Source: a virus. Taken from it: a stretch of DNA of 35,644 nt. Where the stretch lies: positions 1 to 35,644 of IMG/VR virus record IMGVR_UViG_3300034073_003424, one strand, 5' to 3'. The notes below the pieces were generated by a model. The model was not told where the DNA came from, ran no database searches, and worked only from the letters and a program-made list of their open reading frames with translations. The stretch's first letter is position 1; each line of letters opens with the position of its first letter. The translations under genes and the position numbers were made by a program. Below are positions 1,849 through 35,644 of the stretch, piece by piece.

Positions 1849-2754
1849 TCACAGTGCCACATAGCGGCATCCGGGGTTCAGGTACATCTGGTAGCCCGCC
1901 TCACGCATCGCACGATGGTGGGCGACGTGCTCGCAGTCCCCGCCGACGTACCCGCCTCGCAGGAACGCCTCGGTCCAGTACACAGCGAGGCCGCCAAATG
2001 CCGAGTACAGCGGGATCGGATGCGACCCCACGGGCGGCAGGAGCCAGTGGAACCACTCCATGCCGACCTCCTCGCGGCGGTCGCGCCAATCGTTAAGCCG
2101 GGCCGCCCATGCGTCGTAGCCCAAGACCTTCGCGACGCCGCGGCCGTGCTGGTGCCGCATGACCGAGTAGGACGCCATGCCGCCTGCCTGAAGGGCGTCG
2201 TGCCGGCTCGAGAGCCGCCCCAGCCACCCGATTGAGTTGAACACGCCGTCGACACTGAACCCGCCGGCCGGGTCGCAGTCGAGCACGATCGTCCACGCCG
2301 TCTTCGGCGCCTCGTCGCGGACGTACCGCAGGCACTCGTTGCGGCAGTAGGCAAGGCGGTTCGTGCGATCGTCCCCGAACCCGCGGATGTCCTCGCCACC
2401 CAGCGTCTCGTGGTCGACAACCACGCCGAACGTCTCCCGGGCATATTCGTCGAGCAGTTGGGCCGTGCCGTCGCGAGAGTCGTTCTCGAACACGTAGACG
2501 CTCGAGTCGTTGAACCCCTTCCGCATCTCCTCGACCAAGCACAGCGTGTTCGCAAGCGCCGGCCGGGCGTTCCTCGCGATCATCACGATCGCCGCGTCGA
2601 GTTCCTTCGCCGCCCCGCGGCCGATGGCGACTGCGGTGCGGTAGGACTCCTCATAGACCGGGTCCACCGGCCAGAAGTCCTCCGGCCGGATCAGTTGTTT
2701 TGAAAAGTCCATAGTTCGATCGGTTGGTTGATCATCAGTCGCGGATCGCACCAT
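1849..2754 (-). CDS. GT-A-fold glycosyltransferase, 301 aa
   Basis: This protein probably transfers a sugar from a nucleotide-sugar donor. Residues 53-75 read as the first beta strand and nucleotide-binding loop (AIVMIARNARPAL). Residues 88-97 hold VFENDSRDGT, and a DxD-like metal motif (LDCDPAGG, Asp149 and Asp151) follows. The ARN...ENDS.DGT pattern resembles the CAP59/alpha-1,3-mannosyltransferase (GT69-like) group. A GGGAGGTGA ribosome site 6 bases before ATG 2754 supports this start, although it makes a 64-base overlap with the upstream gene. Met15 at 2712 is the alternative. The upstream genes are a second glycosyltransferase and a sugar aminotransferase, so this is a surface- or virion-glycan locus. 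The acceptor is unknown. Confidence 0.75.
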   Translation of the reverse strand: MVRSATDDQPTDRTMDFSKQLIRPEDFWPVDPVYEESYRTAVAIGRGAAKELDAAIVMIARNARPALANTLCLVEEMRKGFNDSSVYVFENDSRDGTAQLLDEYARETFGVVVDHETLGGEDIRGFGDDRTNRLAYCRNECLRYVRDEAPKTAWTIVLDCDPAGGFSVDGVFNSIGWLGRLSSRHDALQAGGMASYSVMRHQHGRGVAKVLGYDAWAARLNDWRDRREEVGMEWFHWLLPPVGSHPIPLYSAFGGLAVYWTEAFLRGGYVGGDCEHVAHHRAMREAGYQMYLNPGCRYVAL

Positions 2755-3461
2755 ATCTCACCTCCCAGTTGTCGTATTCGGTCGCATAGCCCGACGAATC
2801 CCTCGTTCTCCATCCGGGCGCCGCACCGCAGGTACTCACCCTTGATCAGCGCGACGCTCCCCACCGTGCCGAGCCGGAACGGCTCCGTCGAATAGCACGG
2901 CGAGTACGGAGGCACCGAAGTGAACCGTGTTCCTTCGTGCCGATACCCCCATGTGTCGTAGAAGAACGGCAGCGGCGCCGGGCCTCCGCCCAAGTGCAAC
3001 TGGAGGTGCTCGCCGAGCCGTAGCGCTCCTTCGCACAAGTCGAGCGAGCGATCCATGCCGACGCTCGCGAGACACGGCCACCCGCCGGCGACGGCCCGCT
3101 TCTCGTCGCCATCGAGGACGTCGGCCAGCCGCTGCACCACGTCCGGCGGCGAGATCAGGTCGCTCTCGTGGATGAGCACACGCCCGGCCCCGTGCATGAG
3201 CGCGGCGTTGATCGCGACGTCTCCCACGAGCGAGCAGGCGAGCAGGCGGTCGGCCGGTTTGTCCCACGGCTCGACGATCAGGATCACCGGCACCGGCGAA
3301 TGCTCGATCACGTACCGCAGCATCTTCTCGGTCGCGTCGTTCGTCGGCCGGACGACCCATACCCAACCGGACACGCCGGCCTTGTCCAAGAGGTGGCTTG
3401 TCCGCCGGACGAGATGCTTCCCGACGTCGCCCATCCACGCGGAGATGCCGATGGTCGTCAT
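2691..3461 (-). CDS. Probable glycosyltransferase, 256 aa
   Basis: The start overlaps the aminotransferase stop as ATGA. The protein opens with a strand-and-helix pattern followed by WVWVVRPTNDATEKML, then a hydrophobic strand (VPVILIVEPWDKPADRL). Residues 96-107 read LIHESDLISPPD. The ESD triad is a plausible stand-in for the metal-binding DxD of GT-A enzymes, as it follows a strand and precedes a proline-rich turn. There is no membrane segment. Its position between an aminotransferase and a second glycosyltransferase is the main support for a sugar-transfer role. Sequence similarity to a named family is not obvious to me. Confidence 0.6.
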   Translation of the reverse strand: MTTIGISAWMGDVGKHLVRRTSHLLDKAGVSGWVWVVRPTNDATEKMLRYVIEHSPVPVILIVEPWDKPADRLLACSLVGDVAINAALMHGAGRVLIHESDLISPPDVVQRLADVLDGDEKRAVAGGWPCLASVGMDRSLDLCEGALRLGEHLQLHLGGGPAPLPFFYDTWGYRHEGTRFTSVPPYSPCYSTEPFRLGTVGSVALIKGEYLRCGARMENEGFVGLCDRIRQLGGEIWCDPRLMINQPIELWTFQNN

Positions 3462-4537
3462 GCCGAGCACCTCTCGAGCACCTCGCACACGGTCTTCACG
3501 TCGTCCCTCGTGAGGCCGCAGTGCGTCGGCAGGACGATGCCCTCATCGTGGAGCCGGTGCGCCGCGCACCCGCCCACGGTGCGGAACGAGCGCATGTGGC
3601 GATGCGTGTTCATCGGCGGGAACGCCGGCCGCGTCTCGACGCCGGCCTGCGCCATCCGGCGGATCACGGCGGAAGCAGGCATCCCGCTCTTCCGCACCGC
3701 GTAGGCCCAGTACCCGCTCGTGTCGTTCGGGTGCGTCGCCTGCGGCACGAAGCCTGCCGGCAGGAACTCGCCGTACCAGCGGAAAAGCATCCGGCGGTGC
3801 GTCAGGAACGAGTCCAGTTTCTTGAGTTGCTCAACCAGCACGGCGGCCTGCAACTCCGTCATCCGGTAGTTCGTGCCGGCCGCGTCATGCACGTACCGCT
3901 CGCGCGTCTGGGCCTGCCCGGCCATGTGCCGGACACGCTCCCCGTGCAGCGGATCGCGCCAGCCGACCGCACCGCCCTCGCCGCAGGTGACTGTCTTCGA
4001 GCCATAGAACGAGTACGTCGTCAGGTCGGAGACGGCGGGCACGCCGGAACGGAGCGCCCCCAGACCCTCGGCGTTGTCCTCGATGAGCACGATGCGCCGC
4101 CCCGTCGCAAGGTAATGGTCGTGCCGCCACTGCTCGAGCGACGGCGGCGGCGTGCCGTAGAGGTTGACCGTGATGACCGCCTTCGTCCTCGGCGTCACGG
4201 CGCCTGTCAGAAACCCCGGCTCGATCGTCCACATTCGGTCGTCGATGCCGACGAACACGGGCTTCGCACCGCAGTACAGGACCGCGTTGGCCGTCGCCAC
4301 GAAACTGGTCGCCGGCACGATCACCTCGTCGCCACGGCCCACGCCGGCCGCGAGGAGGGCTAGGTGCAGGGCGGCCGTCCCGCTCGACACGACGTGGCAC
4401 GGCTGGCCGGTGATGGCTTCCATCGCGGCGTCGGCGGCATCGCACACCGGGCCGCGTGTCAGCCGGCCGGACGCCAGCACCAAGGCCACGGCGGCGGCCT
4501 CCTCCTGCCCGACGATGGCGGCGCCGAAGGAGATCAC
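3458..4537 (-). CDS. DegT/DnrJ/EryC1/StrS-family sugar aminotransferase, 359 aa
   Basis: A PLP-dependent enzyme that aminates a keto-sugar on a nucleotide carrier, the family that includes perosamine synthase (PerA) and VioA. Seen directly: the SSGTAALHLAL cofactor loop (51-61), an Asp in LIEDNAEGLGA (Asp154) that should hold the PLP ring nitrogen, and the Schiff-base lysine Lys181 in SFYGSKTVTCGEGG. Length is close to the family norm of about 370. Start and stop are both coupled by ATGA overlaps. The window also encodes GDP-mannose 4,6-dehydratase, whose product GDP-4-keto-6-deoxymannose is the PerA substrate. GDP-perosamine is therefore a reasonable inferred product, but the substrate cannot be fixed from sequence alone. 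Confidence 0.9.
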   Translation of the reverse strand: MISFGAAIVGQEEAAAVALVLASGRLTRGPVCDAADAAMEAITGQPCHVVSSGTAALHLALLAAGVGRGDEVIVPATSFVATANAVLYCGAKPVFVGIDDRMWTIEPGFLTGAVTPRTKAVITVNLYGTPPPSLEQWRHDHYLATGRRIVLIEDNAEGLGALRSGVPAVSDLTTYSFYGSKTVTCGEGGAVGWRDPLHGERVRHMAGQAQTRERYVHDAAGTNYRMTELQAAVLVEQLKKLDSFLTHRRMLFRWYGEFLPAGFVPQATHPNDTSGYWAYAVRKSGMPASAVIRRMAQAGVETRPAFPPMNTHRHMRSFRTVGGCAAHRLHDEGIVLPTHCGLTRDDVKTVCEVLERCSA

Positions 4538-7902: not shown

Positions 7903-8153
7903 TTGGAGAACCTCACATACAGCGGCCCGTTCTCGCCCACATACGCACCGAGCGTGTTGAACGACAGGTACTCGTCGGCTTCCTCCGGCGTCATGCCATC
8001 GCGCTCGACCAGCACGTCAACGCACTTGTCGATGTCGTAGACCGCGACGTGCGGGTGGTGGTGGTTCACCGTGTATCCCACGAGGGCCGCCTCGAGGCCG
8101 TCGGCGAGAAGGGCGTCTGGGTTGAGTTCGGCGAGGTTTTCGAGGGTGCTCAC
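7899..8153 (-). CDS. Conserved small phage protein of unknown function, 84 aa
   Basis: The sequence matches a type I recognise from many phages: it starts with LNPDALLADGLEAALVGY, has a middle strand VAVYDIDKCVDVL, and ends DGMTPEEADEYLSFN then AYVGENGP. It has no catalytic residues. Both ends are coupled through four-base overlaps. The family is widespread in tailed phages and of unknown role. Confidence 0.75.
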   Translation of the reverse strand: MSTLENLAELNPDALLADGLEAALVGYTVNHHHPHVAVYDIDKCVDVLVERDGMTPEEADEYLSFNTLGAYVGENGPLYVRFSK

Positions 8154-8887
8154 TCCACCATCCCCCTCACCTGCTCAATCCACTCGGAGAACAGCGACAC
8201 GTCGGTGTGCGCACTCTCTTCGCCCTCGCGGCTGCGGAGTGGTCCGGTGCCGTCGCGCATCGTGAACGAGTGGATGCCGGCGATCCGGGCGTCCGGGCCG
8301 GAGCCGGTGAAGAGCGGGCCGCCGGAGTCCCCCGGGGCGATCCCGAACTCACGGGAACTCGACCGCCTGTTGATCCCGCAGATCAGGAGCGTCCGCTCCC
8401 GCCTTTTGATCGTGTTGGTTCCAGCACGCAGCAGGCCGTCCGATCGGGAGTAGCCTCCCGAAATCGGCCCGGTCGCGCCGTAGCCGGCCAGCGAGCACAC
8501 GGTGCCCTCGTTGTCCGCTTCTGTCGCGTAGCACGGGTAGTGGTCGAGGCCGAAGTCGCCTTTGCACCGCAGGATCGCAAGGTCGTGCCACCCGATGTTC
8601 GCCTCGTCGAACTTCGGGTGGACGAAGACAGTCGTGACCGGGTTGCCGCCGACCGCCACCGTCATGGCCTCGTTCACGACGTGGGCAGCGGTCATTGCCA
8701 GATGCGGGGCGAACACTACGCAGGTGCCGATCGCCAGACGTCCAGACGGCTCGACCACCTCGCACTTTCTGACGTAGGGGGCAAAGGAGGCGCCGTACTT
8801 CACGTACACGGAGTCAGGCACGGAGTCGTCGATCGTGCCGGCGGCTGCGGCCGATGCGAGAGCGGCGAATGCGAGCGTCGATCTCAC
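8150..8887 (-). CDS. Secreted trypsin-like (S1) serine protease, 245 aa
   Basis: The catalytic triad is complete: His69 in MTAAHVV, Asp102 in HDLAIL, and Ser198 in APGDSGGPL. A short signal peptide (RSTLAFAALASAAAAG, cleavage near residue 17) predicts export. The GTG start is chosen because GGAGGG lies 4 bases upstream and the codon overlaps the previous stop as GTGA. Six cysteines suggest an oxidising destination such as the periplasm. Chymotrypsin-type proteases are rare in phage genomes. It may act on envelope proteins, on the virion, or on competing phages; nothing nearby settles this. Confidence 0.88.
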   Translation of the reverse strand: MRSTLAFAALASAAAAGTIDDSVPDSVYVKYGASFAPYVRKCEVVEPSGRLAIGTCVVFAPHLAMTAAHVVNEAMTVAVGGNPVTTVFVHPKFDEANIGWHDLAILRCKGDFGLDHYPCYATEADNEGTVCSLAGYGATGPISGGYSRSDGLLRAGTNTIKRRERTLLICGINRRSSSREFGIAPGDSGGPLFTGSGPDARIAGIHSFTMRDGTGPLRSREGEESAHTDVSLFSEWIEQVRGMVE

Positions 8888-9754: not shown

Positions 9755-9838
9755 TCACTCCATGTATCGCAGGAGGCTCAGGTACGTCGCGGCTCCTGCC
9801 GCCACGAGGATCACGAAGACGTTCGCCCACACGTCCAT
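9755..9838 (-). CDS. Single-pass membrane microprotein, 27 aa
   Basis: The ATG overlaps the CsrA stop as TGATG, and almost the whole product is one hydrophobic helix (VFVILVAAGAATYLSLL), ending in RYME. Translational coupling and the strong TM signal support a real short gene, but its length makes it uncertain. It might anchor in the host membrane or be incidental. No family can be claimed. Confidence 0.4.
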   Translation of the reverse strand: MDVWANVFVILVAAGAATYLSLLRYME

Positions 9839-10014
9839 CACGGCTTCTCCGCGACGGCGGGCTTTGGCGCGACCAACTCCTCGCGGAGGACAGTCGTGTC
9901 CCGCGGGGCGATGACGCCGATGCGGACGCGGCCTTGCTCTACGCCGCGCACCTCGATGACGACGTCCTTGCCGATCAGTATCCGCTCGCCAATTCGTCTG
10001 GTCAGGCACAGCAC
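9838..10014 (-). CDS. csrA: CsrA/RsmA-family RNA-binding regulator, 58 aa
   Basis: CsrA dimers bind GGA motifs in mRNA leaders and block or alter translation. Residues 1-47 match the family closely: LCLTRRIGERILIG, VVIEVRGVEQGRVRIG, then APRD and LREEL, with RNA-contact Leu4 and Arg44 both kept. The GTG start is set by AAGGAG 6 bases upstream; the frame continues upstream without CsrA similarity. The tail is a short Pro/Lys-rich extension. A phage copy could rewire host carbon or surface regulation, or control phage genes, many of which have GGA-containing ribosome sites. Confidence 0.92.
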   Translation of the reverse strand: MLCLTRRIGERILIGKDVVIEVRGVEQGRVRIGVIAPRDTTVLREELVAPKPAVAEKP

Positions 10015-18891: not shown

Positions 18892-19755
18892 ATGACACAC
18901 ACTCTACGATCTGTACTCCACGATCTGTACGTGCCGCTTAGGTCGCTCTGCCCAAGAAGCGTCGAGAACTACGAATTCACGATTCGTGCGTTCTCGGCGT
19001 TTCTTGGGCGTGAGGCGACCTTGGACGACCTCGACGAACTGACCGTCGCGAGGTACTTGACCCATCGCGTCAAGGAGCGTGCGATCGCCACGGCCGCGAA
19101 GGATCGGGCACAGTTGCGCGCACTCCACGAGTTCAGCGTTCGCCGCAAACTCTGCGACCACTGGCCTCAGTATCCGCCGATCCGCGTGCCAGACCGCGTG
19201 CCGGAGGCGTGGTTCTCCGGCGAGATGCAGAGGCTCCTTGACGCTGCTGGTCAAGAGAAGACGGTGCTCGACGGCATTCCCGGCGGCCTATGGTGGCGGG
19301 CGCTCCTGCTTCTGGCCTACGACACGGCCGAGCGTGCGACCGCTCTGACGAGCCTCCGCTGGCGGAACGTCCGAGGCTCCTCAGTTCTGTTCATGGCCGA
19401 GGACCGCAAGGGACGTCGCCGCGACATCCTCCGCGAGATCGGCGAGGACACTCTGGCTGCTCTTGAAGCGATCCGTGGCGACCGCGGGCCGGACGACCTC
19501 GTGTTCCCGTGGCCGCGGACGCGGACCTACCTCTGGCGGCGGCTCGAGATCATCCTCGAGCGAGCGGGCCTGCCGCACGGCCGGCGGGACAAGTTCCACA
19601 GGATTCGCCGGACGACCGCGTCCTACTACGAGGCCGCAGGCGGCTCGGCCCAGCGGCTCCTCGACCACTCCGACCCGGCGACGACGCGGAGATACATCGA
19701 CCCGCGGATCGTAAGGCCGCAGGCGGCGCCGGAATTGATCCCGAGGGTGTCGTGA
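18892..19755 (+). CDS. int: Tyrosine recombinase / phage integrase, 287 aa
   Basis: It catalyses site-specific recombination between phage and host attachment sites. The N-terminal SAM-like core-binding domain spans about 1-95 (SVENYEFTIRAFSAFLG). The catalytic set is visible: Arg in TAERATALTSLRW (near residue 148), His-x-x-Arg in FHRIRRT (near residue 240), His in LLDHSDP, and the nucleophile Tyr in TTRRYIDP. Length is somewhat short for a phage integrase. The gene overlaps the next start as GTGA. It implies a temperate lifestyle; attP cannot be located here. Confidence 0.92.
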   Translation: MTHTLRSVLHDLYVPLRSLCPRSVENYEFTIRAFSAFLGREATLDDLDELTVARYLTHRVKERAIATAAKDRAQLRALHEFSVRRKLCDHWPQYPPIRVPDRVPEAWFSGEMQRLLDAAGQEKTVLDGIPGGLWWRALLLLAYDTAERATALTSLRWRNVRGSSVLFMAEDRKGRRRDILREIGEDTLAALEAIRGDRGPDDLVFPWPRTRTYLWRRLEIILERAGLPHGRRDKFHRIRRTTASYYEAAGGSAQRLLDHSDPATTRRYIDPRIVRPQAAPELIPRVS

Positions 19756-20605: not shown

Positions 20606-21521
20606 TCAGACGACGCACCCGCTCGTCGCCCGCCACCACGCCACGGTCTCCGCGATCCCTTCTCGCAGCGTGACCTGCGGCTCCCACCCGAGCACCTCGC
20701 GTGCCCTCGTGGCATCGACCGCACGGCGTGGCTGGCCGTCCGGCTTTGACGAGTCCCAGCGGATCGTGCCGTGGTACTCGCACTCGCAGGCGATCAGTTC
20801 GGCGAGTTCTCGCATCGTCACCTCGCCGCCGCCTCCGAGATTGACCGGCTCCGGCGTCTCGATGCGTTCTGCGGCACGGAGAATCCCTTCGGCCGCGTCG
20901 GAGACGTGCAGGAACTCCCGGCTGGCCGACCCAGTCCCCCAGAGCGTGACGTCGCCGGCTGCGCAGAAGCGCCGGATCATGGCTGGGATGACGTGGCTGG
21001 ACGCCGGGTCGAAATTGTCGCCCGGGCCGTAGAGGTTCGTCGGGATCACGACGGCCCCTTCCATGCCGTACTGGGCGTGGTACTGCCGTAAGAGTTCGTA
21101 GACGGCTCTCTTCGCCACGCCGTAGCCCGCGTTCGTCGCCTCCGGGTAGCCGTTCCAGAGGTCTTCCTCCTTGAATGGAACCGGAGGCGAGAGCGGATAC
21201 GAGCAGACCGTCCCGACGACGACCATGCGGCGGCACTCGTGCAGCCGTGCGGACTCGACGACGTTCAGGCCCATCGCGAGGTTCGCGTAGGTGAACCGCC
21301 CCGGCGTCCGCATATTGGCGCCGATGCCGCCGACCTCCGCGGCCAGATGCAAGACGACGTCCGGCCGGCAGGCGGAGAACAGTCTTGCCGTGGACCGCGG
21401 GTCGGTCAGGTCGCACACGCGACGCCGCGGCACGGTGACCTGCGTGCAACCGCGCTCCTCGAGCAGCCGGCACACGACGCGGCCGAGGAACCCTGCCCCG
21501 CCGGTGACCAGCACGCGGCAG

Positions 21522-21544
<23 letters not shown>
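20606..21544 (-). CDS. fcl: GDP-L-fucose synthase (4-keto-6-deoxymannose epimerase/reductase), 312 aa
   Basis: It should convert GDP-4-keto-6-deoxymannose to GDP-L-fucose with NADPH. The NAD(P) loop is GGAGFLG (15-21), and the SDR residues are Ser115, Tyr141 and Lys145. The epimerase residues known from E. coli are kept: Cys114 in GTVCSYP and His184 in SHVIPAM. That argues for a working enzyme rather than a remote relative. The start overlaps the dehydratase gene by 23 bases. Length is near the usual 320. Confidence 0.9.
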
Positions 21545-22502
<958 letters not shown>

Positions 22503-25029: not shown

Positions 25030-26457
25030 TCAGAAACTCCCACCATCGAGAGTCTCAAGGAACGCCACCGACGTGCCGGACGCGGAGTAGGTCAGGATGC
25101 CGTCGGTCGTGCCGCCCTGCACCGCCGTGACCGTGTCGAGCGTGTTCGACCCGAGGACGCTCCCCTTCGGCACGGTCGTGAGGCCGGTGCCGCCCTTCGT
25201 CGGCCCAATCGCGGTCGCCGACCACACGCCCGTGGTCACCGTGCCGAGCGTCGTGATCGACGTCTGGCCGGCGTAGGCCGTCGAGATGTCGATCGAGTCG
25301 GCGGCCACGCTGATCCGATCCGTCGTGCCGACGACGTTGATCGTGCTGCCATCCTTCGTGAGGCCGTCGCCGGCGGTGATCTGGCCGGCACCGGAGAACT
25401 GAGCGAACTCCAGCGACGTCGTGCCGACCGTGATGGTTCCGTTCGTGGTCAGCACCCAGCCCGTGTCCGCGTTCGTCGTGCCTTCCTCGACGAATGCGAA
25501 CGCGCCCGGCGTCACCTCGGCGTCGGCGTCGAAGTCGGTGGCCCGCACCGCCGCGCCCGACGCCTGCACGACATAGATGCCGTTCTGCGAGGCCGTGTCC
25601 TGATTTTTGACGAGCACCCGGTCGCCGGTGGCGAGCGTCACGCCGTCGATCGTGTCGCCGTTCTCGAGCGCACTCGACAGGTCGATGTTCGCCGTGGTCG
25701 CGGCACGCACCGACTGCTTGACGTCGAGGCCAGCACGGGCAGCGTCGACATACGCCTTCGTTGCAGCGTCGTTGTCGTCTGTGGGGGCCGCGAGGTTCGT
25801 GATCTTCTGCGAGTTCATCGTCAGCGACGCGGTCGGCGCCGCGAACGACGTCAGGTTGTACGCCTTGACTGTGGTCTCGAGGTCGGTCACGTTCGCGGCG
25901 ACGTGCGTGTGGACGGCGGACGCGGCAGACACATCGACTGACGTCAGACTGACCGTGCCGACCTTGCCGTTGACGCTGGAGACCGGCCCATAATTTGCAG
26001 CCTCGGTCGCGAAGTCAGTCACATCGGCGGCTACGTGTGTGTGGACGGCGGACGCCGCGGACACGTCAACCGACGTCAGGCTGACCGTCCCGGTCTTCCC
26101 GTTGACGCTGGAGACCGGCCCGACGAGCGACGCTGCGGTCGTGAAGTCGGTGATCTTCGTGCTGGTCAGCGACGGGATGTCGTCGGCCACGAGGAGCCGG
26201 AACGTCGGCGCCGCGTCCGGCCCTGAAATCGGCCCTGCGAGCACCTTGTTGGCCTCACGGACGGTGACGATCGAGATGAAAGCCCCGCCGCCGCCGATGG
26301 CGACCACGTTCGCGGCGTTCGTGCCGCTCGAGCCGGTGCCGATGTAGAGCGTGCCGGCACCGCCCGTGCCGGCTGCTTCGGCGTAGGCCAACTCCGCATT
26401 CAGCAGTGACTCAGGAGCGCTAGAGCCTGTGCTGCGGCGGATACGAATGCGAGCCAT
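25030..26457 (-). CDS. Repeat-rich tail fibre protein, 475 aa
   Basis: GGAGG 9 bases upstream supports the start. The N-terminus (GSSAPESLLNAELAYAEAAG) matches the attachment-like module of the neighbouring S74 fibre. Two full 44-residue repeats occur at about 113-200, each with GPVSSVNGK, VDVSAAS and an HTH triplet. The rest is beta-rich, with Asp/Thr-rich segments typical of phage fibres. It has no catalytic motif. It is probably a trimeric structural fibre. Confidence 0.75.
   Translation of the reverse strand: MARIRIRRSTGSSAPESLLNAELAYAEAAGTGGAGTLYIGTGSSGTNAANVVAIGGGGAFISIVTVREANKVLAGPISGPDAAPTFRLLVADDIPSLTSTKITDFTTAASLVGPVSSVNGKTGTVSLTSVDVSAASAVHTHVAADVTDFATEAANYGPVSSVNGKVGTVSLTSVDVSAASAVHTHVAANVTDLETTVKAYNLTSFAAPTASLTMNSQKITNLAAPTDDNDAATKAYVDAARAGLDVKQSVRAATTANIDLSSALENGDTIDGVTLATGDRVLVKNQDTASQNGIYVVQASGAAVRATDFDADAEVTPGAFAFVEEGTTNADTGWVLTTNGTITVGTTSLEFAQFSGAGQITAGDGLTKDGSTINVVGTTDRISVAADSIDISTAYAGQTSITTLGTVTTGVWSATAIGPTKGGTGLTTVPKGSVLGSNTLDTVTAVQGGTTDGILTYSASGTSVAFLETLDGGSF
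25858..26121 (-). repeat. Two 132-bp repeats encoding a 44-aa fibre unit
   Basis: Two consecutive units of 44 codons each encode GPVSSVNGK(T/V)GTVSLTSV then DVSAASAVHTHVAA(D/N)VTD. The same repeat family is found in the fibre gene at the right edge of the window. Each unit carries one HTH triplet. Confidence 0.75.
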
Positions 26458-27052: not shown

Positions 27053-27321
27053 TTTGCGCCGTCCACTGAGACCTTGTATGACCTCGCCTCTTCGGCGGCC
27101 TTGGGCTGGAGGGCATAGAGGAGCCTCGTTTGCTCCTCGATCGCACTGGCGATGTCCTTCTGCGACTCAGAGATGGTCTTCAGGAACGCAGAGTGCTGCT
27201 CCACGAGCGGGAGCAGGACGTCAGTGCGAAGGAAGTAGCCTCCGGCCACGCAAAGCAGGGTCGGCAGGCCGTACCGTTCGAGGACCGTCTTCACGACGTC
27301 GTTCATGTCTTCGCCGCTCAC
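27049..27321 (-). CDS. Small membrane-linked protein, 90 aa
   Basis: A GTG start with GAGG 6 bases upstream is preferred; the ATG at 27306 is an alternative with no ribosome site. The N-terminal part has one hydrophobic segment (LPTLLCVAGGYFL). The rest is helical and amphipathic (SAFLKTISESQKDIASAIEEQ). It may be a small tail or lysis-type protein. No family is recognised. Confidence 0.5.
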   Translation of the reverse strand: MSGEDMNDVVKTVLERYGLPTLLCVAGGYFLRTDVLLPLVEQHSAFLKTISESQKDIASAIEEQTRLLYALQPKAAEEARSYKVSVDGAK

Positions 27322-27334
27322 GGCACGCCTCGTG

Positions 27335-27360
27335 ACGCCGCAAAAGGCAGAATGCGGCGT
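27335..27360 (-). other. 8-bp perfect hairpin at the dNMP kinase stop
   Basis: ACGCCGCA (27335-27342) and TGCGGCGT (27353-27360) form a perfect stem on either strand, starting at the kinase stop codon. The 10-base loop is followed on the minus strand by TCACGAGG, the ribosome site of the next gene, not a T run. It may slow decay or modulate translation of the downstream gene. Confidence 0.45.
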
Positions 27361-27911
27361 TATTTCATTGTATCGTTTTGAAGCCTTGACCACGCCGCAT
27401 CCACGCGGCCGGCGAGGACCGACAAATCCCCATCGTTGAGCACCTCGTCGTCCACGAGGCTGGCCTCGATGCCGCGCTCGCTCGAGTGCGACCCGGCGGA
27501 GCCAGCCAACCCGGCCCCGGGCCTGACGACCCTCCAGACGTACCCACCGCGGGCATGGATCGCCTCGGCCTCGTTGTCGAACCGGACGTCCGTGATCACG
27601 GCGATTGGCGCCTCGGAGTCTTCGATCCGCTTCATGGTCGCCATCACCCAGATTTCCGGGTGGATGGTCTCGCGCCCCCACTCGGTGCCGATCGTCTGGA
27701 GGAGCCGCCGCGGGCTGGCTGGCAGCCACGGCAGGTCGCGTTCCTTGTGCCGGCGGTCCTGTAACTCCGCAATCGACATCCCGGTGATCGCCGAAATCGC
27801 CGCGTACAACGGGTCGGCGAACCCGAAGATTCCGGCCCCATGCCGTGCCGCGAGCATCTCAGCCACCGTGTTCTTGCCGCACCCAGCGGCGCCGCAGAGG
27901 CCGAGGATCAT
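27360..27911 (-). CDS. Deoxynucleoside monophosphate kinase, 183 aa
   Basis: It phosphorylates dNMPs to support phage DNA synthesis, like T4 gp1. The P-loop GAAGCGKNT spans residues 7-15. The downstream LLQTIGTEWGRETIHPEIWV and VITDVRFDNEAEAI are characteristic of this family. The start overlaps the metallophosphoesterase stop as TGATG. Length matches the usual 180-240. Confidence 0.85.
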   Translation of the reverse strand: MILGLCGAAGCGKNTVAEMLAARHGAGIFGFADPLYAAISAITGMSIAELQDRRHKERDLPWLPASPRRLLQTIGTEWGRETIHPEIWVMATMKRIEDSEAPIAVITDVRFDNEAEAIHARGGYVWRVVRPGAGLAGSAGSHSSERGIEASLVDDEVLNDGDLSVLAGRVDAAWSRLQNDTMK

Positions 27912-29080
27912 CACTTCACCCCTGCGACGTGCATGGCAGTCAGGCCGCCTTCTGGGCGGTAGAGGAAGGTTTCCATCGCACGACGGGAACCGATGAAGCC
28001 GTGCTCGGAACTCCAGTCGTCCGTGCCGCCGACGCTGGGGGCTGTTCTGACGATGACAGACTCGATGGTCTCGATCGGCCGCTGCCACTCTGCGGCCTGC
28101 GAATGGAAGTGTCCGGTGTGGTACTCGCGGTACGGGCACCTCGACCAATCGGCGGCGGCCTCGATCGCCATGATCTGCGGCAACTTCCGCTTCGCCCGGT
28201 GGCCGTGGGCGATGCCCAGCAGGTTCGCCCCGTGTGTGACGTACTGCCGGCCGGTGAACTTCATGCTCACGGCGACACGCTGGTCGTTTCGGAACCGCTC
28301 GAACAGGATGCGCTGAAAGCACCAACTGAGGGTCTCGTCGTGGTTCCCGTTCACGACGTGGACGTCGGTCGGCGTCGTCGCGGCGGACTGCTCGACGATC
28401 GACAAAAGCGCGTCGCTGCCAACCTCGATCATCTTCTGGAGCCGGCCGTCGCGTTCCAACTGCGTTCCGCTGGTGGTGGTCCCATGCGGAGAGTCGTAGT
28501 GAAAGAGGTCGCCGAGGTAGAAGATGCTCCGCCGAGCGGGCTTGTACTCGTTGCCGACGGCGATCAGTTCGTTCGACGTCTGCCGGATGACGCGGTCGGC
28601 AATGTCAAGATCGTAGTCGCCGTGTCCGGTCGTCTTCCCCCACGCATATTTGCCTACGTGAGCGTCCGCCACGACGATGACCTGCCACAGTTCTCCCTTC
28701 GGCTTCTTGTGCCTGCTCACCGGACGCTGCTTGAGGCCGACGGCCCCTGCGATCATCGCCTCCACGACCTCGCGTGTCGTCGGCCCGGCCTTTGGCTTTA
28801 GCCTCACGAAGACGCGATGCAACTCGGTGACGGTCGTCCCGCCTTTGCCGTCGCTCGTCGCGCACTCCCATTTGGTGGCTTCGGATGCCGCTACTTCATA
28901 CCGCTGTAAGTCAGCCTCGATGTGCGCAAGGAGGTCTTCGACCGTCTTGATGCGGCGGCTCGTGCTGCGGGCCTCGAGCACGTCGCCTTCGCGCTTGGTC
29001 GTGACCTGCTCCGCGTCCGGGGCGGGTTCGGGCTGTGGCAGTTTGGCCGCGACTTTCGCGATCAAGTCCTCCTGAGCCAT
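27911..29080 (-). CDS. Calcineurin-like metallophosphoesterase, 389 aa
   Basis: The metal-binding set is complete and in the right order: DxH (Asp139, His141), GDLFH (Asp191), GNHDE (Asn246, His247), GH at 292-294 (AHGHR), and HTGHFH (321-326). The first 125 residues are charged, with a helix-rich N-terminal region. AAGGAG fixes the ATG. The group includes SbcD/Mre11-like nucleases. A nuclease role is plausible here, but no Rad50 partner is seen. Confidence 0.85.
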   Translation of the reverse strand: MAQEDLIAKVAAKLPQPEPAPDAEQVTTKREGDVLEARSTSRRIKTVEDLLAHIEADLQRYEVAASEATKWECATSDGKGGTTVTELHRVFVRLKPKAGPTTREVVEAMIAGAVGLKQRPVSRHKKPKGELWQVIVVADAHVGKYAWGKTTGHGDYDLDIADRVIRQTSNELIAVGNEYKPARRSIFYLGDLFHYDSPHGTTTSGTQLERDGRLQKMIEVGSDALLSIVEQSAATTPTDVHVVNGNHDETLSWCFQRILFERFRNDQRVAVSMKFTGRQYVTHGANLLGIAHGHRAKRKLPQIMAIEAAADWSRCPYREYHTGHFHSQAAEWQRPIETIESVIVRTAPSVGGTDDWSSEHGFIGSRRAMETFLYRPEGGLTAMHVAGVK

Positions 29081-29322
29081 GCCTTCACTCCTTGCGGGCC
29101 GATGGTGATTCCCAGTTCGCCAAGCGTCGCCGAAATCGCCCGGCACGCCGTGATCTCCCGCTTTCCAAACCGGCCTGCAAAGTACGCATCGCGGAGCGGC
29201 AGAACCTGCTCCGCCTGTTCCGGCGTGAGCCGCTGCCACCACGGTTTGACGTGCGGCGTCGTGTCCACGCGGGACGCGACTCGTTCGATCAGGTCATCCG
29301 CTGACAACTGCTTCTCGTCCAT
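29062..29322 (-). CDS. Small hypothetical protein, 86 aa
   Basis: GAGGTG 5 bases before the ATG supports the start. The protein is charged and helical, with WWQRLTPEQAEQVLPLRDAY and a C-terminal GITIGPQGVKAWLRR. It overlaps the phosphoesterase gene by 19 bases, so the two may be linked. No family is recognised. Confidence 0.55.
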   Translation of the reverse strand: MDEKQLSADDLIERVASRVDTTPHVKPWWQRLTPEQAEQVLPLRDAYFAGRFGKREITACRAISATLGELGITIGPQGVKAWLRRT

Positions 29323-29330
29323 GCTGCACC

Positions 29331-30395
29331 TCACGAGAGACCGTCGCACGCCATCAGGAGTGCGCTGATGTGATGCCCGACACGCTCCTCGTCCTCCGAC
29401 AAGATCGCTTCCACGCCCGAACCGGCGGCATCGCAGGCTCCGGCGTGGACGCTCTCGCAGACTGCGGCGTCCTCGGCGAACACGGCCCGGTTGAAGTCCA
29501 CGACCGCCCTGTTGAACACCTCGCGGCGTTCCGCCTGTGCCGGCGAGAGGTCGCCGACCTTCGTCGCGTAGACCAGCGACATGAACTCCGTTTCGCCGAC
29601 GCCGGCCGGAGCGAAGAACTGGACCGATACGCTCATGCCTGCCGCGCTCGCGATCGTGCAGTGCGGGAAGACCAGTTGGTGGACGTATCCGGCAGGCTTG
29701 TACGGCCGCGAGGCGAACACGTCTTCCATCGATTCGAGCCACGCCGTCGTCTTCGCCGACAGGGGCGTCGACCACGACGAGTGCGGGCCGGCGAAGGAGA
29801 ACTCGCCGCCGTTCGCGCCGAGCCGGTGGAATGTCTCCGGGTGGACGTGGCCGACGTGGTACGCCTCGAGCGTGTTCTCTACGGCGATCTTCCAGTTGCA
29901 CCGCATCCAGATGCGGTTCGTGTCAAGTTGCTCGCCGCAGGCGTCGGTCATCGCGGCGATCGTCCCCCACGCATCGCCGAGCCACGCCTCCAGTTCGATC
30001 GCTTTCGTGCGGCAGACGAACACGAGATTCCCGCACCGGGCCGTCTCGTACACGGCGAGGCCGTGCTCCGCGAGGTTCACGCCGTCGAAACTGGGCCGCT
30101 TCGGCACCCGGCACGGCAGGCCGTCCGGCCCGAACTCCCAGCCGTGGTAGCCGCAGACAAGCGGGCCGGTTCCGCAGGGCTTCGTGACCAGCCTGTTGAG
30201 ACGGTGCGGGCAGACGTTCAAGAACGCCTTCAGTTCTCCGCCGACGTTCTGGACGATGACCTTCCCGCGGACGACGTAGTCGCCGTCTCCGGCGATCTCG
30301 TTCGCCATGCAGACCGGCGTCCAGACGGAGTTCGCGAACGCCGTAACCTCTCGTGCGTACTGCTCATCGGAAACGTAGTAGGCGGCCGGGATCAT
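29331..30395 (-). CDS. Rieske non-haem iron oxygenase (catalytic subunit type), 354 aa
   Basis: The Rieske cluster ligands are present: Cys62-x-His64 (CPHR) and Cys81-x-x-His84 (CGYHGW). The mononuclear iron ligands follow the family pattern in VENTLEAYHVGHVHPETF (Glu177, His180, His185), about 100 residues on. Length is shorter than the usual 400-450 of aromatic dioxygenases, in line with mono-oxygenases that modify small metabolites. It needs reductase electrons, and none is encoded nearby. Start overlaps the SDR stop as ATGA. Substrate is unknown; context suggests an acyl or sugar intermediate. Confidence 0.88.
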   Translation of the reverse strand: MIPAAYYVSDEQYAREVTAFANSVWTPVCMANEIAGDGDYVVRGKVIVQNVGGELKAFLNVCPHRLNRLVTKPCGTGPLVCGYHGWEFGPDGLPCRVPKRPSFDGVNLAEHGLAVYETARCGNLVFVCRTKAIELEAWLGDAWGTIAAMTDACGEQLDTNRIWMRCNWKIAVENTLEAYHVGHVHPETFHRLGANGGEFSFAGPHSSWSTPLSAKTTAWLESMEDVFASRPYKPAGYVHQLVFPHCTIASAAGMSVSVQFFAPAGVGETEFMSLVYATKVGDLSPAQAERREVFNRAVVDFNRAVFAEDAAVCESVHAGACDAAGSGVEAILSEDEERVGHHISALLMACDGLS

Positions 30396-31123
30396 CGTGC
30401 GGTCATGCCCCCGTCGATCGTGAGGACAGTCCCTGTCGTCCACTTCTGACGCAGGAGGTACTGAATCGCCTCGGCGACGTCCTCCGGCTCTCCGAGGCCG
30501 AGGAGGTGGTCGTCTACCACGGCCTGCCACTGCGTCGGAGACATCGTGTGCTCGAGCCGCTCCTGCATCGGCGTCCTGACGACGCCCGGGGCGACGGCGT
30601 TGACCCGGATGCTGGATGAGGCCAGTTCGACCGCCAGAGCCTTGGTCAGCCCGAGCACCGCGGCCTTCGACGCCGCGTAGGCGCTCGCGGCGGCCTGCCC
30701 GACGATCCCGGCCACGCTCGCGACGAACACGATCGCGTCGGCCCCACCGGCCCGCACGGCCGGCTGCCGGAACGCTTTCGCGACGTGCCACGCCGTGTGG
30801 TAGTTCGCCGCGATCATCTCGTCCGCCTTGGCGTGCGTCTGGTATCGCAGCGGAGTCAGTGAGTGGATGCCGGCTGCGTGGACGACGCCATCGAACTTCC
30901 CGTGGACCGCGGCGATGTCAGCGAGCACGTCGTCGGTGCGGTCGCCAAGCGACACGAGGTCGATGCTCTTCCAGCCGTGGTTGCCGGCCGGCAGTGCGTC
31001 GTGGGCTTCCCGCAGGCGGCCGTAGTCGCGGCCGAGCAGGTAGACGTCGTGGCCTACGGCTGCCAAGAGCCTCGCCGTGGCGGCCCCGATGCCGCTGGAC
31101 CCTCCGGTCACGAGGTATCTCAC
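30392..31123 (-). CDS. SDR-family 3-oxoacyl-ACP-reductase-like enzyme, 243 aa
   Basis: An NAD(P)H-dependent ketoreductase resembling FabG. The cofactor loop TGGSSGIG lies at 6-13 and the catalytic residues are Ser136, Tyr149 and Lys153. GGAGG in front of the GTG supports the start (GTGA overlap). It sits directly after a KAS III gene and an acyl carrier gene, so reduction of a 3-ketoacyl-ACP is the natural reading. Other SDR substrates, such as a sugar, cannot be excluded. Confidence 0.88.
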   Translation of the reverse strand: MRYLVTGGSSGIGAATARLLAAVGHDVYLLGRDYGRLREAHDALPAGNHGWKSIDLVSLGDRTDDVLADIAAVHGKFDGVVHAAGIHSLTPLRYQTHAKADEMIAANYHTAWHVAKAFRQPAVRAGGADAIVFVASVAGIVGQAAASAYAASKAAVLGLTKALAVELASSSIRVNAVAPGVVRTPMQERLEHTMSPTQWQAVVDDHLLGLGEPEDVAEAIQYLLRQKWTTGTVLTIDGGMTAR

Positions 31124-32055
31124 TCGGCGACCTCCACGAGGTCGTGGAGCCTCGTCGTGGACAGGTCGGCAGCGACGGCGCAGTACGACCAGCCACCGCC
31201 GAATCCGGCCATGACAGTCTTCGCCTTGCTTCCGCAGGTCACTAGCGCCAGCGGGATCGACGCGCTCGACACGTTGCCGAAGTGCCGAACGACGCCGTCG
31301 ACCCACTTCGACTCCGGCACGCCGCACTTCTCGCGTAGGTGGCGGAGCATGAACTGGTTCGGCTGGTGCGGGACGATCTGGTCGACCGTGTCCATCGTCC
31401 AGCCGGCCGCCGCGAGCGACTCGGTGACCATCATCGGCACCGTCCGCATCGCGAACTCGAAGACCTCGGCTCCGTTCATCTTCAGGCACGACGTGTCGCC
31501 GTGACCGAGCGACAGATGCTCCGCTCCGCTCCCGTCGCTGCCGAACGCGACGTGCAGCGGCGGCGCGTCGTCGTCCCGCTCAAGGATCGTGGCGCTCACC
31601 GCGTCGCCGAAGAGCGGCTCGGTCGCCCTGTCGTTCGGCGATACGACGGTCGACAGGCAGTCGCCGGCGACCAAGAGGACGCGGGGCACGCCGGCGGCCA
31701 CGAGGCCAGCCGCCACCGCGAGGCCGTAGGTGTATCCGGAGCACCCTTGGTTCACGTCGAACGCGGCACACGCCGTGCCGAGGTTGAGCCGGCCGTGCAG
31801 GACGTTGGCGACCGGCGGAATCCGTTGGTCCGGCGTCTGCGTGACGACGACGATCGCCTGCACCGCCCGGCCGAGCACCTCGCGGCACGCGGCCTCGGCC
31901 AAGTCGGTGAGCGTCAGGCGGTCGACGACACGACGCTCGCGGACGCCGGTGGCGGCCTCCAGTTTCGACGCCGCGGCGCCCCAGCGAGACTGATCTCGCG
32001 CGGTCGAAGGCACGGCCACGGCGATGTCGCGGATCGCAACGCCTTGGATGCTCAT
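31120..32055 (-). CDS. KAS III-like (FabH family) 3-oxoacyl-ACP synthase, 311 aa
   Basis: It should condense an acyl-CoA with malonyl-ACP. The Cys-His-Asn triad is complete: Cys105 in VNQGCSGYTYG, His240 in VPHQPN, and Asn271 in HFGNVSSASI. Length fits the family (about 315). It overlaps both neighbours by four bases (ATGA, then GTGA). A host FabH should already be present, so a phage copy with its own ACP points to a specialised product. The start at MSIQG lies directly after the ACP gene. Confidence 0.92.
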   Translation of the reverse strand: MSIQGVAIRDIAVAVPSTARDQSRWGAAASKLEAATGVRERRVVDRLTLTDLAEAACREVLGRAVQAIVVVTQTPDQRIPPVANVLHGRLNLGTACAAFDVNQGCSGYTYGLAVAAGLVAAGVPRVLLVAGDCLSTVVSPNDRATEPLFGDAVSATILERDDDAPPLHVAFGSDGSGAEHLSLGHGDTSCLKMNGAEVFEFAMRTVPMMVTESLAAAGWTMDTVDQIVPHQPNQFMLRHLREKCGVPESKWVDGVVRHFGNVSSASIPLALVTCGSKAKTVMAGFGGGWSYCAVAADLSTTRLHDLVEVAE

Positions 32056-32270
32056 TGGATTCCCACGAGCGCGGCCAAGTCGCCGACCGTCCTTGCTTCC
32101 ATGAGCCGTGCGGCGCTCACGATCACGCCGTACTTCTTGTCGGCCATCGCCATGAACCCCATCGCACTCATGGAGTCCCATCCGGCAAGGTGGTTCAGGG
32201 ACATCTCCGGCTGGCTGGTGCCGGCCGGCTGCTCGACCAGTTGGTCGAGCGCCTCGCAAAACTCGCTCAT
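32052..32270 (-). CDS. Acyl carrier protein, 72 aa
   Basis: A carrier for acyl groups via a phosphopantetheine arm on Ser33 in the WDSM motif (30-35, GWDSMS). Length and acidic helices fit the ACP fold. It lies between the NeuD-like acyltransferase and the KAS III gene, each coupled by ATGA. A dedicated carrier protein in a phage is unusual and implies a private acyl pool. A host Sfp or AcpS would be needed to load it. Confidence 0.9.
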   Translation of the reverse strand: MSEFCEALDQLVEQPAGTSQPEMSLNHLAGWDSMSAMGFMAMADKKYGVIVSAARLMEARTVGDLAALVGIQ

Positions 32271-32878
32271 TGTGGTTTCCTGTAGATAACCGCCGCAGGG
32301 ACTCCCATCACGGTGGATCGCTCCGGCACCTCGCGGACGACGACGCTGCCGCTACCCACGATCGACCAGTCGCCGGCATGGGCGTGCGGCAGGATGCTGG
32401 CGTGCGACCCGACGAGGACGCCCTCGCCGAGGCTCGCGTGCCCGCACATGTCGGCGTGGCTCGAGATCGAGCAGTAGTCGCCGGTCACGGTGTCGTGGCC
32501 GACGGTCGCGGCGCAGTTGACCGTCACGAAGCGCCCGATGGACGAGCCGACACTGAGTATTGCGTGGGGGCAGATCACGCAGCCCTCGCCCATCGCGGCC
32601 GGCTCGGTGACGATCGCTGTCGGGTGGACGAGCGTCCAGAATCGCGCCCCGCGGCTGCGGAGTCGCTCGCAGACAATCCGCTTGAGCGCCGGCTCGCCGA
32701 TGCCGCACAGGAAGACGTCGCGAGGTGAGAATACGAGGTCGTCAGGCAGGACCGGCAGGCCGCACGCGACGCCCTCGGCCGTGTCGAGGAAGGCGTCCAC
32801 GTCGATGCCGGCGTCCCGTGCCCAGCGGAGCACCTCGCGGCCGAAGCCGCCGGCGCCCACGATGTACGTGTTGCTCAC
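32267..32878 (-). CDS. NeuD/PglD-family sugar acyltransferase, 203 aa
   Basis: A left-handed beta-helix enzyme that adds an acyl group to an amino sugar on a nucleotide carrier. The N-terminal nucleotide-binding GAGGFGRE loop (8-15) and the hexapeptide-rich C-terminus (IGRFVTV, VTGDYCSISSHADMCGHASLGEGV) match PglD. The likely catalytic base His128 lies in ATVGHD. The GTG start overlaps the previous stop as GTGA, with AGAGGA upstream. It could use acetyl-CoA or, given its neighbour, an acyl-ACP. Confidence 0.85.
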   Translation of the reverse strand: MSNTYIVGAGGFGREVLRWARDAGIDVDAFLDTAEGVACGLPVLPDDLVFSPRDVFLCGIGEPALKRIVCERLRSRGARFWTLVHPTAIVTEPAAMGEGCVICPHAILSVGSSIGRFVTVNCAATVGHDTVTGDYCSISSHADMCGHASLGEGVLVGSHASILPHAHAGDWSIVGSGSVVVREVPERSTVMGVPAAVIYRKPQ

Positions 32879-33180
32879 GGCTGCTTGTCCTCTTGCAGGC
32901 GGTAGCCGAGGAACCAGAGGATTCTGCTCACGTCGCGGGCGCTCGCCGTGATCGTCTCCTCGCTCATCTGCGGGAAGCACACATGGAGCGCCTCGTGGAT
33001 TTCGGTCTCCATGCGAGCACGGCCTTTCAGCCGCGAGTCGATCAAGACCTTCCGCACCGACGGCTCGCCGGGCTTGTTTGGGTCAGGCAGGTACGCCCAC
33101 CCGGCCGCCTGCCCGCGGAGGCGGCTGTACCGCCACACCCAGCGGGCGCCTGCGATCAGGAAGTGGTGCGTCGCCGGCAT
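32875..33180 (-). CDS. Zincin-like HEALH protein, 101 aa
   Basis: Residues 60-66 read EIHEALH, containing an HExxH zinc-protease core, followed by CFPQMSEE and a closing helix with WFLGYRL. It is short for an active protease, so it may be a degenerate or very small zincin, a pattern also found in other phages. No ribosome site is seen before the ATG, but a TTGACC/GATACTAT promoter stands directly upstream. It leads the acyl operon and is coupled to the NeuD-like gene. Confidence 0.6.
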   Translation of the reverse strand: MPATHHFLIAGARWVWRYSRLRGQAAGWAYLPDPNKPGEPSVRKVLIDSRLKGRARMETEIHEALHVCFPQMSEETITASARDVSRILWFLGYRLQEDKQP

Positions 33181-33185
33181 GGCAC

Positions 33186-33217
33186 ATAGTATCTTTGGGA
33201 GACCTAGCGCCGGTCAA
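33186..33217 (-). promoter_or_regulatory. Promoter of the acyl operon
   Basis: On the minus strand, TTGACC (33212-33217) and GATACT (33188-33193) are 18 bases apart; the shifted box TACTAT (33186-33191) also matches. The start codon follows 5-7 bases after the box, so the message would have almost no leader. TTGACC matches the -35 at five of six positions. It is the best promoter of the three TAC(A/T)AT sites. Confidence 0.5.
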
Positions 33218-34429: not shown

Positions 34430-35644
34430 TTACCTCAGAAGAAACAGGATCGCCCGCGAGCCTTCCGCCGGGCCGCCGCTGCCGCCGGCGTCGATCGTCA
34501 CTTGGCTGCTGGTGTTCGTCGTGATCGTGACATTGCTTCCGGCTACGAGCGATACAAGCCCGGTTCTGCCATTGACGCTGACGACGTTCGCGACGCTCGT
34601 CAGGTCGGAGATCGCGGAGGCGACGTGTCCGTGGATGGCGGCAGCCGCCGTGATGTCGCCGATTGTCGGCAGCCTGTGAACGTGATCCTCGCGGGAGGCG
34701 TTCCCGCTGGCGCCAGCGGCGGCGACGCCCAAGTCCAGCGGCGTCGCCGCTCCAACGGTGACGCCGGACGTGCCGCCGGCGGCCTCAATGGTGATGCTGC
34801 CGGCGCCAGTGTTCTTGACGAACGACACGCCGGCGCCAGCAGAGAGGACGTCATCGACGACGCTGTACCTCGTCGCCCACGACGCCGCCGTTCCGTCGGT
34901 GGTCAGGATTCTCGTCGCGTTGGTGCCTTGGTCCGGCAGGCCGCTGCCGGATGACACGCCGATCGTGATGTTCGACCCGGAGGTCGACACCGCGATGCCG
35001 CTGCCGGCGACGATGAGTGGCAGCCCGGTGATGCCGTTCACGCTGACCACATTGGCGACGCTGGTCAGATTGACGATATCGGTCGCGTTGTGGGTGTGCG
35101 TGGCGGAAGCGGCAGACACGTCGGTCGCCACGAGCGTGACCGTACCCGTCCGGCCGTTCACGCTGCTGACGGGGCCATGCTTGGCAGACTCCGCCGCGAA
35201 GTCAGACACGTCAACGGCCGTGATCAAGATCGTGCCAGTCCTTCCGGCTACGCTTGATACTGGTCCGTACTTGGCAGCCTCACCGGAGAAGTCAGTGATG
35301 TCGGCCACGACGTGCGCGTGGCTGGCCGAGGCCGCCGAGACATCCGACGCCAAAAGTGTGACGGTCCCGGTGCGACCGTTGACGCTGCTGACGGGGCCGT
35401 ATTTGGCGGCTTCTGTCGCGAAGTCCGTAATGTTTGCGACAACGTGCGTGTGACTGGCCGAGGCGGCGGAGACATCAGATGCCACAAGCGTGACCGTGCC
35501 AGTCCGGCCGTTGACGCTGCTGACGGGGCCATGTTTGGCGGCTTCCGTCGCAAAGTCCGTAATGTTCGCGGCAACGTGTGTATGGCTGGCCGAGGCGGCC
35601 GAGACGTCGGAGGCCACGAGGGTGACTGTGCCCGTCCGGCCGTT
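34430..35644 (-). CDS. Repeat-rich tail fibre protein, C-terminal part (cut by window edge)
   Basis: The reading frame is open to the window edge, so the N-terminus is missing. At least three full 44-residue units and one shortened 30-residue unit occur, each with GPVSSV(N/A)GRTGT and a DVS element; the full units add an HTH or HAH triplet. They are followed by a degenerate copy. The C-terminal 200 residues are beta-rich without repeats. HxH triplets in T4 gp37 bind iron along the fibre, so a similar role is possible. It is probably a long trimeric fibre. Confidence 0.75.
   Translation of the reverse strand, partial: NGRTGTVTLVASDVSAASASHTHVAANITDFATEAAKHGPVSSVNGRTGTVTLVASDVSAASASHTHVVANITDFATEAAKYGPVSSVNGRTGTVTLLASDVSAASASHAHVVADITDFSGEAAKYGPVSSVAGRTGTILITAVDVSDFAAESAKHGPVSSVNGRTGTVTLVATDVSAASATHTHNATDIVNLTSVANVVSVNGITGLPLIVAGSGIAVSTSGSNITIGVSSGSGLPDQGTNATRILTTDGTAASWATRYSVVDDVLSAGAGVSFVKNTGAGSITIEAAGGTSGVTVGAATPLDLGVAAAGASGNASREDHVHRLPTIGDITAAAAIHGHVASAISDLTSVANVVSVNGRTGLVSLVAGSNVTITTNTSSQVTIDAGGSGGPAEGSRAILFLLR
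35012..35644 (-). repeat. 132-bp tandem repeat array in a fibre gene
   Basis: Units of 132 bases (44 codons) run 35486-35617, 35354-35485 and 35222-35353. A 90-base unit lacking 14 codons (35132-35221) and a degenerate copy follow to about 35012, and the array continues past the edge. It shares the unit with the fibre gene at 25030-26457, so gene conversion or unequal exchange is possible. Confidence 0.8.

Follow-up and report, generated by a model that had tools for sequence, protein, structure and literature searches.

The window analysed here is the whole of the 35,644-base viral fragment IMGVR_UViG_3300034073_003424 (IMG/VR; positions 1 to 35,644), and the element in question is an operon of five genes on its minus strand at 29331-32878. 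The genes run head to tail from 32878 to 29331, and the order of transcription is NeuD-like N-acyltransferase, acyl carrier protein (ACP), beta-ketoacyl-ACP synthase III (KAS III), short-chain dehydrogenase/reductase (SDR) and Rieske oxygenase. Adjacent genes share exactly 4 bases (ATGA/GTGA) at every junction, and the NeuD gene overlaps the gene ahead of it in the same manner. That gene, named 'up' (32875..33180, minus strand), is a conserved phage gene of 101 amino acids with a HEALH motif, which starts the operon and forms the left border of the cassette. It is found both with and without the module and is 59-98% identical in the nearest relatives. Its HEALH fits the zinc-protease-like HExxH pattern, and the protein keeps 85% identity between lineages in which Rieske identity is only 48%. 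A preliminary description of this DNA had placed the five-gene set at these coordinates with 4-base overlaps, named the five families and reported their catalytic residues as present. The coordinates are correct, profile searches bear out all five family names, and sequence alignments and motifs confirm the catalytic residues in all five proteins.

The NeuD/PglD/VioB/PerB-type hexapeptide N-acyltransferase (32267..32878, 203 amino acids) matches Hexapep, PglD_N and the NCBIfam model TIGR03570 (NeuD_NnaD), the last at 198 bits and so above the curated cut-off of 160.8. Its best solved relatives are VioB (7txp), a pilin glycosylation protein (4m98) and perosamine N-acetyltransferase (4ea7), and His128 is invariant in an alignment with the more distant viral lineage (group 2, below) and Burkholderia glumae. 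This protein is likely to be the N-acyltransferase of an aminosugar. The ACP (32052..32270, 72 amino acids; PF00550 (PP-binding), E 1.5e-8) carries Ser33 within the motif DSM (32-34). KAS III (31120..32055, 311 amino acids; PF08545/PF08541) matches ACP_syn_III at E 2e-19 and the C-terminal domain at E 6e-18, and its triad Cys105-His230-Asn261 is invariant among the viral copies. It also matches PRK09352 (1.4e-57, below the cut-off) and the solved relative 4efi (E 5e-47). The SDR (30392..31123, 243 amino acids, GTG start; PF13561/PF00106) is a FabG-like 3-oxoacyl-ACP reductase with matches to adh_short (E 8e-40) and the FabG-like PHROG 3142 (E 6e-42), and contains TGGSSGIG, Tyr149 and Lys153. 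KAS III and the SDR match many models and pass no equivalog cut-off, suggesting that they are specialised enzymes rather than housekeeping FabH and FabG. The last gene (29331..30395) encodes the alpha subunit of a Rieske non-haem iron oxygenase of 354 amino acids (PF00355, PF00848; Rieske E 3e-11, Ring_hydroxyl_A E 2e-19). Both the Rieske cluster and the 2-His-1-carboxylate iron site (H180, H185, D309) are present by sequence, and the CxH-CxxH residues C62/H64/C81/H84 together with E177/H180/H185/D309 are invariant in seven viral and bacterial relatives. The bridging residue Glu177 aligns with Glu in carnitine monooxygenase and with Asp in naphthalene dioxygenase.

Searches with KAS III and the Rieske protein over 2.9 million viral contigs have shown the module in a further 11 IMG/VR contigs, each from a different metagenome, with gene order and flanks kept in all of them. 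They fall into two lineages: the first (group 1) comprises eight near-identical relatives (about 96%; KAS III 93-99%, ACP 96-100%), and the second (group 2) comprises three distant ones (Rieske 48%, KAS III 65%, SDR 67%, NeuD 68%, ACP 73%). Within the first lineage the module genes have dN/dS values of 0.00-0.19, which shows purifying selection; this and the retention in 11 other viral contigs show that the five-gene set is not a product of chance. In the same lineage dS is mostly 0.1-0.25 for the module and 0.33-0.43 for the flanking exonuclease, and this lower value hints that the module has been exchanged more recently. For both Rieske and KAS III, the viral proteins fall into a single group with SH-aLRT support of 100, next to proteins of bacterial glycan loci.

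In the 70-kb sister contig G006 the strand that holds the operon also bears genes for a terminase, a portal, an S78 protease and an HK97-type capsid, so that this contig qualifies as an HK97-type tailed phage; the window is a fragment without those genes. The operon is genuine tailed-phage DNA. An assembly chimera was one outcome that the preliminary description had named as damaging to its reading, and host DNA mislabelled as viral is a related possibility; single-component matches in INPHARED, which fall on unannotated records or on Acinetobacter records containing benzoate-type genes, do resemble host DNA. However, the same junctions recur in the 11 further contigs, terminase, portal and capsid genes lie on one contig, and related phages show empty and swapped sites (below). 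An artefact of this kind is so improbable that it is rejected.

Genes for an aminosugar and its putative transfer lie elsewhere in the window on the same strand. Gmd, a GDP-mannose 4,6-dehydratase (21522..22502), reaches 489.7 bits against a TIGR01472 cut-off of 415; it is 96-97% identical in the three longest group 1 contigs and 77% identical in G011, the 51-kb contig of the second lineage. Also present is a GDP-L-fucose synthase-like epimerase/reductase (Fcl, 20606..21544; NF047922 6.5e-80, below the cut-off), which matches PDB 7ll6 (E 8e-68) and 1bws and is 62% identical in G011. A DegT-family aminotransferase of perosamine-synthase type (3458..4537; PF01041 3e-80) has the perosamine synthetases 3bn1 and 3dr7 as its best solved relatives (E 4e-54) and Lys181 in SFYGSK as its pyridoxal phosphate-binding lysine, and is 96-97% identical in every group 1 contig that is long enough and 56% identical in G011. 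It overlaps GTb (2691..3470), a putative glycosyltransferase of 259 amino acids with a HESDL motif, no assigned family and a weak GT-A fold match, which is 64-97% identical across all lineages (71% in G011). A GT2-like glycosyltransferase of 287 amino acids with a DCD motif (1849..2712; PF00535 8.5e-5, just under the cut-off) is conserved in all lineages (58% in G011). Thus, Gmd, Fcl, DegT, GTb and GT2 accompany the module in both lineages that bear it. The AlphaFold models of GTb and the GT2-like protein (pLDDT 44 and 38) are too low in confidence for an acceptor to be assigned, and a Foldseek match from such a low-confidence model to a mannosylglycerate synthase that uses GDP-mannose is a hint at most.

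Gmd and a Per-type aminotransferase together produce GDP-4-amino-4,6-dideoxymannose (GDP-perosamine), the natural acceptor for an N-acyltransferase of the NeuD/PerB type. The phage sugar is likely to be an aminosugar of the GDP-perosamine type, as judged from these sequence matches. Viosamine is the less likely candidate given that Gmd scores above its cut-off and DegT matches perosamine synthetases.

The right border of the cassette is a small gene of 86 amino acids (29062..29322, minus strand), followed by a phage exonuclease-like gene (27911..29080, minus strand; PHROG 704) that serves as a marker of the phage backbone. Relatives of this exonuclease occur in at least 176 viral stretches, and among a subset of 80 of these the module is found in just the two lineages described above. 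In two stretches (L150 and L151) the site is empty, and 'up' is followed directly by the right-border gene. A third lineage (L149/G1204), roughly equidistant from the other two, has a single GNAT acyltransferase of 144 amino acids (L149 8277-8711; PF00583, E 2e-14) exactly between 'up' and the right-border gene, and the GNAT gene overlaps 'up' by 4 bases, as NeuD does. This phage retains Gmd (89%), Fcl (86%), DegT (58%), GTb (64%) and GT2 (63%). A lone GNAT and an acyl-making kit therefore take each other's place between the same two genes, in phages with the aminosugar genes in common, suggesting that the kit acylates the phage aminosugar; this swap is the strongest evidence for the N-acylation role. 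It leads us to propose, tentatively, that the phage lineage has a dedicated, swappable locus for aminosugar acylation, by which each phage may make its own version of a 4-amino-4,6-dideoxyhexose and so place phage-specific glycans on the virion or the infected cell. The DegT, GTb and GT2 genes (1849-4537 in the window, 35150-37847 in G1204) are 58-64% identical between the two genomes, while the adjoining gene at 4534-4827 is 92% and Gmd 89% identical, as if the sugar-transfer block itself diversifies or is exchanged. A methyltransferase (PF13578) lies at or adjoining the locus in most relatives and has no match in the window. It stands with a LamG-like gene between ACP and KAS III in five sister contigs (e.g. 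L024 7249-8483, G001 27249-28483) and upstream of 'up' in others (L009, L032-L034, L149), and it has a 30% relative in a Vampirovibrionales locus.

The similarity to bacterial surface and flagellar glycan loci drawn in the preliminary description extends to the whole module, Rieske gene included. In Burkholderia glumae BGR1, the pBGF3 locus combines flagellin, fliD, fliT, TPR and vioA genes with those for KAS III, ACP, SDR, acyltransferase and Rieske oxygenase, and has another KAS III-like stretch between ACP and SDR. Similar sets are present in Bordetella LUAb4, Massilia HP4, Pseudomonas graminis, Sphingomonas phyllosphaerae, a Gemmatimonadetes metagenome-assembled genome (MAG) and a Vampirovibrionales MAG. 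Among the bacterial loci with the whole set, flagellin accompanies it in L035, L036, L047, L048 and L066 and vioA in L035, L044, L048, L064 and L066; in several, flagellin lies within 10 kb of the set. Azospirillum has KAS III, SDR and Rieske genes beside GNAT genes, with flagellin or glycosyltransferases in the same loci. The loci of B. glumae type thus have the same five enzyme types side by side, as in the phage, but they have a second KAS III gene, carry VioA in place of Gmd and a Per-type enzyme where checked, and differ in gene order.

A further comparison is the Pseudomonas syringae island (vioA, vioM, vioT, vioS, vioB, vioR, acp), which makes the flagellin glycan N-(3-hydroxy-1-oxobutyl)-2-O-methylviosamine, and mutants of vioB or vioR lose the sugar (PMC3927599). 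KAS III, ACP, SDR, NeuD/VioB (vioS-vioR-acp-vioB) and a dedicated 4-aminosugar aminotransferase are common to both systems. In contrast to the island, the phage set would act on a sugar derived from GDP-mannose rather than dTDP-viosamine, has a Rieske gene added, and has its aminotransferase (non-adjacent in all three lineages) and glycosyltransferases elsewhere in the genome. The island also has a methyltransferase, vioM (PMC3927599), of which the PF13578 methyltransferase of most related phages is a candidate counterpart; none was matched in the window. Since the nearest relatives of DegT are perosamine synthetases and Gmd is present, the phage module works like a viosamine island but is not one; the likening to P. 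syringae viosamine in the preliminary description thus stands for the enzyme set and probably not for the sugar. With the Caulobacter-type GDP-perosamine/N-acetylperosamine pathway the phage shares Gmd, a perosamine-synthetase-like DegT and a PerB-related NeuD, and it differs in that its acyl group is apparently made on a dedicated ACP and not taken as acetyl.

This last point bears on whether NeuD might merely acetylate the aminosugar from acetyl-CoA, with ACP, KAS III, SDR and Rieske enzymes serving a separate reaction. Solved relatives of NeuD are mostly described as acetyltransferases, in agreement with such a division. However, the five genes overlap and stay together as a single block, unrelated bacteria have the same combination, and VioB of P. 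syringae is required for the 3-hydroxybutyryl sugar (PMC3927599), making a purely acetylating NeuD unlikely. The five enzymes could also produce a small molecule or modulate fatty-acid synthesis in the host, unrelated to any aminosugar. Rhodobacteraceae prophages carry acpP-fabF-fabG as well as rfbABCD sets (PMC8224337), and KAS III, SDR and Rieske enzymes are frequent in secondary metabolism. This explanation is quite improbable, however, given that NeuD scores above the cut-off of a sugar acyltransferase family, that bacteria have the same set beside VioA and flagellin, and that a lone acyltransferase takes its place in a phage retaining the sugar genes.

These observations make it fairly probable that the operon is a dedicated cassette for acyl supply and N-acylation of an aminosugar made by the same phage. 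We infer the reactions, their order, the acyl structure, the role of the Rieske enzyme and the acceptor as follows. Gmd would convert host GDP-mannose to GDP-4-keto-6-deoxymannose, and DegT would aminate this to GDP-perosamine or a close relative. KAS III would condense a short acyl-CoA with malonyl-ACP to give a 3-ketoacyl group on the phage ACP, which host enzymes would load, and the SDR would reduce the ketone to give 3-hydroxyacyl-ACP. With a host reductase, the Rieske enzyme may add oxygen to, or otherwise oxidise, the acyl chain or the acylated sugar; malonyl supply and Rieske electrons would thus come from the host. The NeuD-like enzyme would then acylate the 4-amino group from acyl-ACP, and GTb and/or the GT2-like enzyme would transfer the sugar to a glycan, which is somewhat more likely to be on the host envelope than on the virion. 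The oxidised short-chain acyl aminosugar put forward in the preliminary description is thus supported by the bacterial loci, the phage aminosugar genes and the in-place GNAT swap, the exact acyl group being a prediction. The phage probably makes a decorated sugar of its own.

Several points weigh against such a cassette. DegT lies about 27 kb away from the operon and not inside it, and the GTb and GT2 assignments, drawn from profile and fold matches, are weak. No phosphopantetheinyl transferase or malonyl transferase was recognised in profile scans and no Rieske partner reductase among the window proteins scanned (a subset of the genes), which makes it necessary to assume partners from the host. 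Identity to the phage proteins is only 30-43% even in the nearest bacterial modules, so substrates may differ, and the P. syringae island has no Rieske gene and still yields its acyl sugar (PMC3927599). A separate GNAT gene (6176-6652, minus strand; 51-53% identical in all three lineages) could be the sugar acyltransferase instead. Among the same scanned proteins no membrane part of O-antigen conversion of the gtrABX/oac type (flippase, polyprenol-linked glucosyltransferase, membrane acyltransferase) was recognised, so that no route to the host surface is evident.

If the acylated sugar is placed on the host envelope, it would alter phage adsorption. A promoter-like sequence (TTGACC-18-GATACT, 33188..33217, minus strand) has its -10 element only 8 bases ahead of the start codon ATG of 'up' and is the sole sigma-70-like match in 27-35.6 kb (1 found against 0.5 expected). 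It is largely kept in group 1 despite differing sequence farther upstream, suggesting independent transcription of the operon, and it is not kept in group 2. The stretch 33181-33217 on this strand is without an evident ribosome-binding site; with the -10 element so close to the ATG, the transcript may be leaderless. In G006 a similar TTGAC/CTAG/TACTAT block precedes an SNF2-like gene. A tyrosine integrase gene (18892-19755, plus strand, opposite to the operon) is 74-78% conserved in other lineages. The promoter-like block and the integrase look more like those of a lysogenic or early trait and slightly favour a role at the host surface. In bacteria, moreover, the related sets serve flagellin and surface glycans.

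By the same pathway, the acylated sugar could instead be placed on the phage's own virion, on tail fibre or capsid, for example hiding the particle or tuning adsorption; this differs in the acceptor alone and overlaps with the N-acylation role. The position of the module and of Gmd/Fcl beside tail-fibre-like genes in the late region favours virion decoration, as do two glycosyltransferases without a recognised membrane O-antigen partner in the proteins scanned. Consistently, a Rieske scan of one genome per species over 84,980 species found no prophage copy (best identity 35%). Set against the host-surface points above, decoration of the virion is possible but somewhat doubtful.

The preliminary description had stated that no phage with such a set was known. 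In agreement with this, the complete set is not found in INPHARED, where KAS III and Rieske matches are distant and resemble host DNA, and searches of the open-access literature on phage ACP, KAS III or Rieske genes or phage perosamine gave nothing relevant. The components and the combined module are already known in bacteria, and acyl-carrier or nucleotide-sugar genes are known in phages. In the Rhodobacteraceae prophages KAS III, NeuD and Rieske genes are not described, and acyl and sugar functions are not joined (PMC8224337). Mimivirus decorates its particle with viosamine, a rare 4-aminosugar of bacteria, which it makes itself; it differs from the phage in being a eukaryotic giant virus that uses N-acetyl groups only, with no ACP-borne acyl group (PMC10117803). 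No phage with the complete kit, tied to a pathway of GDP-perosamine type and exchangeable with a GNAT, was found in INPHARED or the literature searched. If the proposal is true, a virus builds a glycan of its own from the ground up, by means of a kit at a defined swappable site and its own sugar and glycosyltransferase genes, and the benefit of such sugars to a phage becomes testable in adsorption, superinfection and hiding. The 3.5-kb kit would also give a small set of enzymes with which to approach the Rieske-containing flagellin-glycan loci of bacteria, which are themselves poorly understood.

Relatives of the capsid protein are 34-40% identical in a few Acidobacteriota genomes and 31-35% identical in Pseudomonadota and Planctomycetota, so that the host assignment leans weakly to Acidobacteriota. 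Scans for tRNA genes and Rfam families gave no matches. A CsrA homologue of 58 amino acids (9838-10014, minus strand; PF02599, E 6e-18) has a distant copy in G1204. A trypsin-like serine protease with a signal-peptide-like N-terminus (8150-8887, minus strand) is kept in all three lineages at 57-63%. Two tail proteins (34430-35644 and 25030-26457, minus strand) contain many near-identical Ser/Thr-rich repeats (VNGRTGTVTL...SASHTHV), which are a possible substrate for glycosylation or phase variation.

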